Source of the DNA: Betaproteobacteria bacterium
Lineage (GTDB): Bacteria > Pseudomonadota > Gammaproteobacteria > Burkholderiales > Methylophilaceae
Direction: 5' to 3'
Assembly: GCA_016867975.1 (NCBI GenBank)
Contig: VGIC01000003.1
Coordinates: 1 to 64,000 of the forward strand
DNA length: 64,000 nucleotides
Within the stretch, counting starts at the first letter, position 1. Each line of letters starts with the position of its first letter. The notes beneath the pieces were generated by a model, which was given only the letters and a program-made list of their open reading frames with translations, was not told the DNA's origin and did not search any database. This document shows, piece after piece, positions 127 to 64,000 of this stretch. The position numbers and the translations under genes were made by a program.

Positions 127-191
127 ATTAAAAATGACAAGAAAAAACTTCGTTTAAATAAAAGCTCACTCGCGCCTTGTCTGACCTTTCG

Positions 192-227
192 CACCAATCT
201 CGCCGCTTTAGCGGCTTTAGATTGGTG
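192..227. other. Intergenic stem-loop (CACCAATCT...AGATTGGTG with inner GCCGCTTTAGCGGC)
   Basis: Direct inverted repeat in sequence. Confidence 0.55.
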
Positions 228-230
228 GTG

Positions 231-303
231 ATGCCCTTTCACACTTTGCTTGCCAGTTTACTGACTTAGCAAATTGGGAAAGCCAAGTACTGGCTTACGG
301 GTA
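231..303. repeat. REP-like intergenic repeat, copy 1
   Basis: atgccctttcacactttgcttgccagttt...aagccaagtactggcttacgggta, near identical to 2124-2195. Confidence 0.75.
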
Positions 304-2123: not shown

Positions 2124-2195
2124 ATGCCCTTTCACACTTTGCTTGCCAGTTACTGGCTTAGCAAATTGGGGAAGCCAAGTGCTGGCTTACGGGTA
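2124..2195. repeat. REP-like intergenic repeat, copy 2
   Basis: Near-identical to 231-303; contains GCCAGTTACTGGC palindrome. Confidence 0.75.
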
Positions 2196-62010: not shown

Positions 62011-62667
62011 ATGAGCACACCACACCATCATTCGCATGATCACGATGATCATGATCATTATTTCATTCCATTTACCCTGATCTTTGTTTTTGCCGTAGTC
62101 GAGGTCGTGGGCAGTTGGTATACCGGTTCTTTAGCCTTGCTGAGTGATGCAGGGCACATGTTCTCAGACGTTGCGGCACTTGGCATGGCTTGGATGGCTG
62201 TACGCATGAGCAAAAAGCCCAACGTAGCACGCCATCACTCCGGGGTCAGCTACGCAGAATTGGCGGTGTCCATCATCAATGCGGCAACCATGTTGCTGGT
62301 AATTGGGTTGGTAGTGGCCGAGGCCATCAGCCGACTCAGCCATCCACATGTGGTCAAGGGAGCGGGGCTTACCATCATTGCCACGCTGGGTTTGATCGTG
62401 AATCTCATTGTGGCAAGACAATTACATCATCAGGCCGAACATCACGCTGAAAGTCTGAATAACCGCGCAGCATTTTTACACGTAATGGGTGATTTGCTCG
62501 GCTCGGTTGCGGCTGTGCTGGCTGGGGTGGTGATTTACTTCACCGGATGGATGCTGATCGACCCCATCCTATCCTTGTTTATCTCGATTTTGCTGTTGGT
62601 GCTCACCATCAATTTGATACGTGAAATTTTGCGCACAGTTAAAGGCGGAGCACGTTCACTGCATTAA
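62011..62667 (+). CDS. Short cation diffusion facilitator (CDF) transporter lacking the C-terminal cytoplasmic domain
   Basis: His-rich N-terminus, VEVVGSWYTGSLALLSDAGHMFSDVAALGMAW, LHVMGDLLGSVAAVLAG; 218 aa. Confidence 0.88.
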   Translation: MSTPHHHSHDHDDHDHYFIPFTLIFVFAVVEVVGSWYTGSLALLSDAGHMFSDVAALGMAWMAVRMSKKPNVARHHSGVSYAELAVSIINAATMLLVIGLVVAEAISRLSHPHVVKGAGLTIIATLGLIVNLIVARQLHHQAEHHAESLNNRAAFLHVMGDLLGSVAAVLAGVVIYFTGWMLIDPILSLFISILLLVLTINLIREILRTVKGGARSLH

Positions 62668-62684: not shown

Positions 62685-62747
62685 CTCAAAAGGCCATTGA
62701 TGCCTCTTCACCGTAGAGAATGAGTCGTTCGTGGATTTGTGCTGTCA
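62685..62747 (-). pseudogene. Truncated 20-codon cassette ORF
   Basis: MTAQIHERLILYGEEASMAF* preceded by AGGAACC and, 13 nt further, by GTTAGGCGC. Confidence 0.35.
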
Positions 62748-62763
62748 TGGTTCCTTTCTGTGC

Positions 62764-62812
62764 GCCTAACGTCTTGGCTGTAAGTCAGTCCCGCTTGATG
62801 GATGAATTAGGT
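62764..62812 (-). other. attC-like recombination site (degenerate)
   Basis: Minus strand ACCTAATTCATCCATCAAGCGGGACTGACTTACAGCCAAGACGTTAGGC: R''-like CCTAAT, L''-like ATCAAGCGGGAC, consensus R' GTTAGGC. Confidence 0.55.
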
Positions 62813-63058
62813 TTTAGAGCGCAAAGGAAATGCACTAGGGTTGCGAATAGACTCTACCGACAAGTCAATATCAAGTAAAGGCCAATAAAGATGATTAGAT
62901 GACTGCTTTTCAACAGTCGTGACTGCTTCAAGAGTAGCACGTTGAAACCATGGGAACTCAGTAAAGGGTACAAACAACTCCTCTTCGTCCAGCAACAGCC
63001 AGAAACCTTTATTTGACGCTAAAGAAACCTCAACTTCCGAAATGGGTACGCCAAGCAT
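62807..63058 (-). CDS. DUF2442 domain-containing protein
   Basis: MLGVPISEVEVSLASNKGFWLLLDEEELFVPFTEFPWFQRATLEAVTTVEKQSSNHLYWPLLDIDLSVESIRNP. Confidence 0.8.
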   Translation of the reverse strand: MLGVPISEVEVSLASNKGFWLLLDEEELFVPFTEFPWFQRATLEAVTTVEKQSSNHLYWPLLDIDLSVESIRNPSAFPLRSKT

Positions 63059-63074
63059 TTAGCATCTCCTTATG

Positions 63075-63228
63075 ATGCCCCTCAACTAATAATAGCGCTT
63101 CATTAAGTCTGAATTCACCGGACTGCGCGCTTTTGCGCAGCCCCACTTTCGCGTGTGAACAAAGTGCTTAAGCACTTATGTTTCACGGTGAAGCCCCTTG
63201 CGGTCTGAACGATGGGTTAGGGCAAAGC
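63075..63228 (-). other. Long attC-like / nested-palindrome region upstream of the DUF2442 ORF
   Basis: Minus strand GCCCTAACCCATCGTTCAGACCGC at the 5' end; nested palindromes TTCACCG/CGGTGAA, CTGCGC/GCGCAG, AAGTGCTTAAGCACTT; GTTGAGGGGC at the 3' end. Confidence 0.45.
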
Positions 63229-63249
63229 GTAACTTGAGAATGCAGGAAT

Positions 63250-63315
63250 CAATGGGGTTAGATAAAATAAATCGAGTCTGACCCCATTGATGTACTAACC
63301 CCATTGATGTACTAC
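63250..63315. repeat. RAYT/REP-type motif remnant plus short tandem repeat
   Basis: caatggggttagataaaataaatcgagtctgaccccattg (reverse complement includes GGGGTCAGACTCGATTTATTTTATC) followed by tandem accccattgatgtacta. Confidence 0.5.
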
Positions 63316-63693: not shown

Positions 63694-64000
63694 ATGAAGT
63701 TTCTTATTTTTATATTTTTTCTTTTACCTTTTTTAGCAAGAGCAGATCTTTCTGTAGAACAGATTTCACAACCGTCTGCCCCAAAAACTGTTTTAGACAT
63801 CAATATCACTGGGGAAATAAAAAAAAAATGATTTGGCTGATCTAAATGCCGCTCTTGCGAGATATACCACTCCTGAAGAATTTAACCCCGACAAATTATC
63901 TTTAGTAGTTAAACCCAATAGTACAGGAGGTAGTCTAGTAACTGCTATCGAAATAGGACGAGTGCTGAGGCGCTTCAATGCCATAGCCTTGCAGTTAGAA
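63694..64000 (+). CDS. Secreted ClpP/SppA-fold-like protein, apparent frameshift in A10 tract; truncated by window end
   Basis: MKFLIFIFFLLPFLARADLSVEQISQPSAPKTVLDINITGEIKKK* then, after a -1 change in A10 (63819-63828), NDLADLNAALARYTTPEEFNPDKLSLVVKPNSTGGSLVTAIEIGRVLRRFNAIALQLE. Confidence 0.5.

Follow-up and report, generated by a model that had tools for sequence, protein, structure and literature searches.

What is the palindrome-rich block that lies around a small DUF2442 ORF, next to a cation-transporter gene, in the genome of a freshwater bacterium living on methanol? The block is found in a Methylotenera-like MAG of the Methylophilaceae (G000; 1.56 Mb in 44 contigs, 92.7% complete), in a window of 64,000 nucleotides corresponding to positions 1-64000 of contig C3, and it has been compared with the genomes of its genus, 52 in total (G000 and 51 others). 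An earlier note on this DNA had proposed a degraded remnant of integron cassettes beside the transporter. The strings on which it relied (GCCCTAACCCATCGTTCAGACCGC, the palindromes, the DUF2442 ORF, CCTAATTCATCCATCAAGCGGGACTG...AAGACGTTAGGC and a 20-codon ORF) are all present where it had placed them, and the remnant is borne out by an attC model, by homologous cassettes in arrays, by a relic of intI and by the absence of the block from relatives. Very probably, what survives here is the left extremity of a chromosomal integron, now dead, of the kind found in the genus; one of its attC sites (attC-A) has been invaded by a repeat element, here named R2. The coordinates of its parts are collected in Table 1.

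Table 1. Features of the block and of its left border (positions in the window).
Feature	Position	Strand	Description
Cation-efflux (CDF) gene	62011..62667	+	PF01545 1.2e-38; host gene bordering the insertion on its left
Truncated ORF of the next (third) cassette, 20 codons	62686..62748	-	MTAQIHERLILYGEEASMAF-stop; starts 15 bp past the R' box of attC-B
attC-B	62764..62812	-	R'' CCTAAT, L'', R' GTTAGGC; CCTAATTCATCCATCAAGCGGGACTG...AAGACGTTAGGC; L' arm shortened by a deletion of ~12 bp
DUF2442 ORF, DhiA-like antitoxin	62807..63058	-	intact, 83 aa; PF10387 5.3e-13
DUF4160 remnant, DhiT-like toxin gene	63030..63107	-	last 25 codons, LNEALLLVEGHHKEMLNAWRTHFGS-stop; contains GTTGAGGGGC
attC-A, 3' part	63107..63145	-	TGGGGCTGCGCAAAAGCGCGCAGTCCGGTGAATTCAGAC; resembles the 3' arms GCGCAGTCCGGTGAATTCAAACG of the genus attC L123/L113/L115
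R2 element	63146..63208	-	63-bp two-hairpin repeat within attC-A at the L'' box; R2 covariance model 80.6 bits, E=4e-18
attC-A, 5' part	63195..63222	-	R'' CCCTAAC 63222-63216, spacer CCATC, L'' start TTCA; R1 model 11 bits

attC sites and the toxin-antitoxin cassette

Integrons are frequent in this genus. An IntI above the TIGR02249 cut-off is encoded in 30 of the 52 genomes, many of the intact intI copies adjoin ilvD (a name given from sequence), and the arrays hold attC sites of about 58-60 bp with the form GCCTAACCCATCATTCAAGCGGGACTGGCTAAAGCCAGCCCCTTAATTCAAACGTTAGGC. A longer site of 123 bp (GCCTAACCCATCGGTCAAGCGGGACTGGCCGATGG...GCCAGCCCCTTACCTCAAACGTTAGGC), whose internal structure is unlike R2, occurs in the L173 array of G011 at cassette-side position 422. 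A genus-specific covariance model (R1), trained on 28 attC sites from other genomes of the genus, detects attC in 38 of the 52 genomes and finds two weak ones in G000. When both strands of the 64-kb window are considered, the top match of this model is attC-B (18.8 bits, E = 0.0025) and the second best is the 5' half of attC-A, a half-site that at E ~1 is not significant alone and that is the same in form as the 5' ends of genus attC (GCCCTAACCCATCGTTCAGACCGC, at 63223-63200(-)). Both sites are on one strand, on either side of the same gene, and each of them lacks one box: the R' box of attC-A is deleted, the matching GTTAGGC being absent. Beside attC-A, in the stretch 63230-63310, TACATCAATGGGGT occurs twice as a direct repeat, together with CTAACCCCATTGAT in inverted orientation; similar stretches are found in G024, G026 and G033.

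In real arrays, DUF2442 comes second, after DUF4160, in a two-gene cassette of the dhiTA toxin-antitoxin type, and its homologues, which come from Methylotenera and other Methylophilaceae, are 84-89% identical to the ORF of the window. Alignment of five such loci (L030, L031, L032, L033 and L034) has shown DUF4160 coding sequence in front of DUF2442 in all of them. The L030 cassette, in which the two ORFs overlap by 29 bp and the full-length DUF4160 protein matches PF13711 (7.4e-17), lies between attC sites of 82.6 and 55.1 bits, and the L031 cassette is followed by one of 54.6 bits. The site behind DUF2442 that is homologous to attC-B is a full attC in both loci, and its alignment with attC-B places the deletion point at ...ACAGCC|AAGACGTTAGGC. 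In contrast to L030, which holds both genes, the window retains an intact antitoxin and a toxin cut to 25 codons. The dN/dS of the DUF2442 ORF against its cassette homologues is 0.11-0.14, a value that does not separate constraint before decay from constraint after it. No homologue of the third-cassette ORF was found in the loci examined or in plasmids.

The DUF4160/DUF2442 pair corresponds to dhiTA, which has been shown to be a functional toxin-antitoxin system in Dickeya, with the toxin gene first (PMC8198452). The cassette module resembles dhiTA of Dickeya dadantii in its domain pair, its gene order and the overlap of its genes, and differs from it in being borne by an integron cassette and in that only the antitoxin is intact in the window.

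The toxin remnant sits directly behind attC-A, at a junction that reads ...GGTGAATTCAGAC|TTAATGAAGC... and shares the dinucleotide AC between both partners; the counterparts at this point are TTCAGAC/TTCAAACGTTA in attC sites and GCAACTTAATGA in DUF4160 genes. This bears on the proposal of the earlier note that attC-like sites flank DUF2442, which holds for attC-B and for the 5' half of attC-A, but not for the R' box that it had recognized in GTTGAGGGGC, 14 nucleotides ahead of the ATG (63086-63077). The alignment of homologous cassettes assigns that string to the C-terminal coding sequence of DUF4160, which overlaps the start of DUF2442 by 29 bp, and its reading as R' was rejected.

Two alternatives depend on how these sites are judged. 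The first denies any integron and sees a remnant of a toxin-antitoxin operon next to intergenic palindromes that resemble attC by chance; it can draw on the facts that the palindromes belong to a dispersed repeat and that the alleged R' box is coding sequence. Since attC-B is the top match of the genus model in the window and aligns with full attC sites in homologous cassettes, and since an intI relic is present (see below), this explanation is already contradicted and scarcely credible. The second considers the block a live CALIN, in which both attC would still work with an integrase provided in trans and the antitoxin cassette would stay mobile. It is consistent with two attC-like sites around an intact ORF and with the frequency of CALINs (PMC9024848), but R' is gone from attC-A, attC-B is without its L' arm and folds no better than shuffles (z = 0.07), and no IntI is encoded in the G000 assembly, which makes this possibility very improbable. 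The whole attC-A segment folds mildly better than shuffles (z ~-1.8), a value that is uninformative because two structures are superposed in it. To judge from the parts that are missing, neither attC should recombine now. CALINs have been defined as attC clusters lacking an integrase and proposed to be degraded integrons (IntegronFinder 2.0, PMC9024848). G000 is like them in having attC without a working integrase, and differs in that an intI relic is still nearby and neither attC is complete, so a standard integron detector may miss the attC of the window.

The intI relic and the insertion site

The earlier note had reported no integrase in the window, which is true of the window itself, but a relic of intI lies just outside it, at C3:65584-65706(+), 1.6 kb beyond its end and about 2.5 kb from the cassette block. 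This relic encodes 41 residues that correspond to IntI residues 34-74 (59% identity, 4.6e-9) with one in-frame TAG, and at the DNA level it shares 75-81% identity with the intI genes of some 14 genomes of the genus (best E 2.5e-21). It is all that G000 retains of a functional IntI: no match in this genome exceeds the TIGR02249 cut-off (265), the best ones (87.9 bits) looking like other tyrosine recombinases, besides one fragment. The relic is encoded on the plus strand and the cassettes on the minus strand to its left, which is the canonical divergent layout of an integron.

Between attC-A and the relic there are a 376-codon ORF, for which no Pfam family was found, and an SNase gene (4.2e-25), both on the plus strand; neither has an attC beside it that would mark it as a possible cassette. 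G073 and G012 likewise contain an SNase-like stretch. From window position 63694-64000 to L144:3964, a gene for a secreted-looking protein (MKFLIFIFFLLPFLARADLS...) is apparently frameshifted into ORFs of 45 and 376 codons; the apparent frameshift falls at an A run near position 2830 of L144 and may be an assembly error or mark a slippage-prone tract. No attI was identified on reading the region beside the relic. Because of the two opposite-strand genes and the lack of an identified attI, the single ancestral integron is a reconstruction and not something directly seen.

The gene order rlmJ-CDF-tautomerase-uvrC-pgsA (the tautomerase being named from sequence) is kept in relatives. In L155 and L158, the tautomerase gene begins about 100 bp past the end of the CDF gene, without an insert and with both junctions readable, whereas in G000 about 3.1 kb separate the two genes, bounded on the left by the truncated third cassette and on the right by the intI relic. 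No attC was found in the CDF-uvrC region of 16 relatives. The conserved order, the readable junctions and the absence of attC there indicate that the G000 lineage acquired the block by insertion at this site; the same absence indicates that CDF-uvrC is not a genus-wide cassette site. The earlier note had named three outcomes that would speak against its reading (no match to an attC model, no insertion or deletion polymorphism across relatives, and homology of the palindromes to an ordinary coding gene), and none of them was observed.

It could also be argued that a whole integron was never present here, and that cassettes entered singly at a secondary, non-attI site through an IntI encoded elsewhere in the genome, the intI fragment having arrived separately. 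Most genus integrons with a visible flank are indeed beside ilvD and not at this locus, and the ilvD flank of G000 holds no trace of intI or attC. Against this, the intI relic and the cassette remnants share the same 3.1-kb insert in the canonical relative orientation, and separate insertions appear quite unlikely. Judged by its sequence, the block is a degraded integron, with parts homologous to those of integrons in the right order and orientation, and with a loss of function deduced from the missing parts.

The R2 repeat and RAYT genes

The nested palindromes, which the earlier note had taken for the stem structure of an attC, belong to an inserted repeat, R2. Its aligned copies form a pair of hairpins, of which the second has two bulges of one base each, and 94% of the cells are paired. 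Double-sided changes amount to 55, whereas shuffles give 12.9 and slid versions of the alignment no more than 8, and the covariation score is 0.314 compared with 0.100 in shuffles; one more basal pair (columns 22-62) likewise goes from C-G to G-C. The R2 covariance model finds the element in 48 of the 52 genus genomes and in 10 of 299 others of the order. It is a multi-copy extragenic palindrome, with 28 copies in G000 and 43 in G073, the maximum in the genus. Against Rfam, the window stretch gave nothing at E<=1, and in eight other loci no match overlapped R2. R2 looks like an undescribed repeat family. The window also holds two weak R2-like matches, at 186-268(-) and 2129-2189(-), with 19.6 and 18.9 bits (E ~0.01).

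Copies of R2 are found in terminator-like stems, in CATTCCG-type repeats, in MITE-like repeats, in tandem groups, in other R2 copies (L272, L290, L271) and in attC. Their flanks form a stem of at least 7 bp around the element in 18 of 86 copies, with 1.6 expected and a maximum of 6 in 300 flank permutations. The 3' junction is usually AAAG, and every insertion in an attC is at TTCA|AG. Copies inside or beside other R2 (one has entered the apical loop of a second) and clusters in tandem or inverted arrangement can be seen at L272:444-506, L290:409-550, L271:468-611 and L275:169-427. In G000, G070, G072 and others, many R2 form the core of a longer MITE-looking repeat (GGGCACTTCTATAAATGCAGAGTTTGGGATGCAG...R2...GCGCACGGAACGCAGnAACCGAGATAGTATGCGGTATACAGCGAGGTT), for example at L234, L245, L247, L249, L266 and L270.

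The attC sites that carry R2 are that of the window, those of contigs C58 and C90 of G071, and that of C28 of G033. All four copies belong to one subtype (AACATAAGTGCTTAAGCACTTTGTT) and occupy one position, and the R2-bearing attC of G071 retain both R boxes. These features would fit an R2 that is the native apical structure of a long, VCR-like attC, or a functional RNA travelling with cassettes. Nevertheless, the majority of R2 copies have no integron around them but occupy terminator-like stems, REP-like hairpins or other R2, and nearly all genus attC lack the element, so a native origin is considered unlikely.

R2 as a mobile element finds support in its association with transposase genes. 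R2 matches at E<0.001 lie within a few hundred bases of a RAYT-type Y1 transposase in 3 of 12 loci, against about 0.1 expected from copy number and genome size. At locus L329 of G020, a genome with four R2 in total, two inverted copies surround a RAYT gene, each within about 60 bp of one of its ends and each inside a hairpin of the GTAGGTCGG or CCCGAC type. A GTAG/CGTC tag is not seen in R2 itself, and the enclosing hairpin at L329 begins GTAGGTCGG. On the other side, R2 is clear in no more than 3 of the 12 RAYT loci, and in G000 itself the only Y1 transposase gene is broken and belongs to another type. REPtrons and TIRtrons are recognised by the inverted repeats that surround their RAYT genes (PMC3733652), and RAYT proteins act on folded single-stranded DNA, an action that the RAYT literature itself likens to that of IntI on attC (PMC8266576). 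The inverted copies at a RAYT gene and the action of these enzymes on folded single strands lead us to propose that R2 is mobilised by RAYT with attC as a target; R2 is probably a REP-like element of this kind that also invades attC.

R2 shares with REP/RAYT and TIR/TIRYT repeats (PMC2817692, PMC3733652) its dispersed palindromes, its bulged imperfect hairpin and its inverted copies flanking a Y1 (HUH) RAYT gene. REPs consist of one palindrome of 20-40 bp, whereas R2 measures 63 bp and has two covarying hairpins, with no GTAG/CGTC tag seen in the element itself; it further differs from both kinds of repeat in sitting in the loops of other hairpins and within attC. No report of REP-like elements inside attC was found in the open-licence literature searched.

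Decay of the probable integron and its meaning

Taking the preferred reading of the block as a dead chromosomal integron, a plausible history can be reconstructed. An integron with intI, attI and cassettes would have arrived between the cation-efflux gene on one side and the tautomerase and uvrC genes on the other, with three cassettes or more in its array: one that ended in attC-A, one of the dhiTA type with attC-B, and a third. During its decay, intI would have shrunk to some 41 codons, a nonsense codon among them; through a deletion at the 2-bp match, attC-A, without R', would have been joined to the last 25 toxin codons; attC-B would have lost its L' arm; and the third cassette would have been cut off beside the cation-efflux gene, leaving the antitoxin ORF alone intact. 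Independently, R2 would have inserted at TTCA|AG in the L'' box of attC-A. We infer that R2 most likely spreads as single-stranded DNA, through a RAYT/HUH Y1 transposase, into hairpin loops and unpaired parts, those of attC included.

Neither the decay of integrons nor the existence of intI pseudogenes is new. A chromosomal integron has been described in Methylobacillus flagellatus KT, and about one third of the surveyed intI genes are pseudogenes (PMC2426708). G000 resembles the M. flagellatus integron and the pseudo-integrons of that study in IntI family, cassette layout and bacterial family, and differs from them in a decay that has gone far further, with 41 intI codons left and both attC mutilated, one of them by an inserted palindrome. 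Across the genus, the number of attC drops with genome size, from at least 105 in G001 (2.5 Mb) to mostly none in the genomes of 1.2-1.6 Mb (R1 survey), which suggests that the integron is lost as genomes streamline. The attC survey and the lack of an IntI over the cut-off place G000 with those members of small genome size that lack a working integron.

The integron relic itself is ordinary; its distinguishing features are the R2 inside an attC and the orphaned antitoxin. An integron in late decay hints at what is lost and what is kept, as integrase and attC are broken and the toxin is gone while the antitoxin is retained. It is also a place where two systems based on folded single strands meet, namely attC recombination by integrons and RAYT-type palindromes. 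Tentatively, R2 may represent a new two-hairpin family mobilised by RAYT/HUH enzymes, with structure-specific insertion into folded single-stranded hairpins (terminators, REPs and its own copies) and with the folded strand of attC at TTCA|AG among its targets, which would constitute a natural route to modify or silence chromosomal integrons. If R2 truly targets folded hairpins, attC sites would be natural landing pads for it, and its effect on cassette mobility would be directly measurable.
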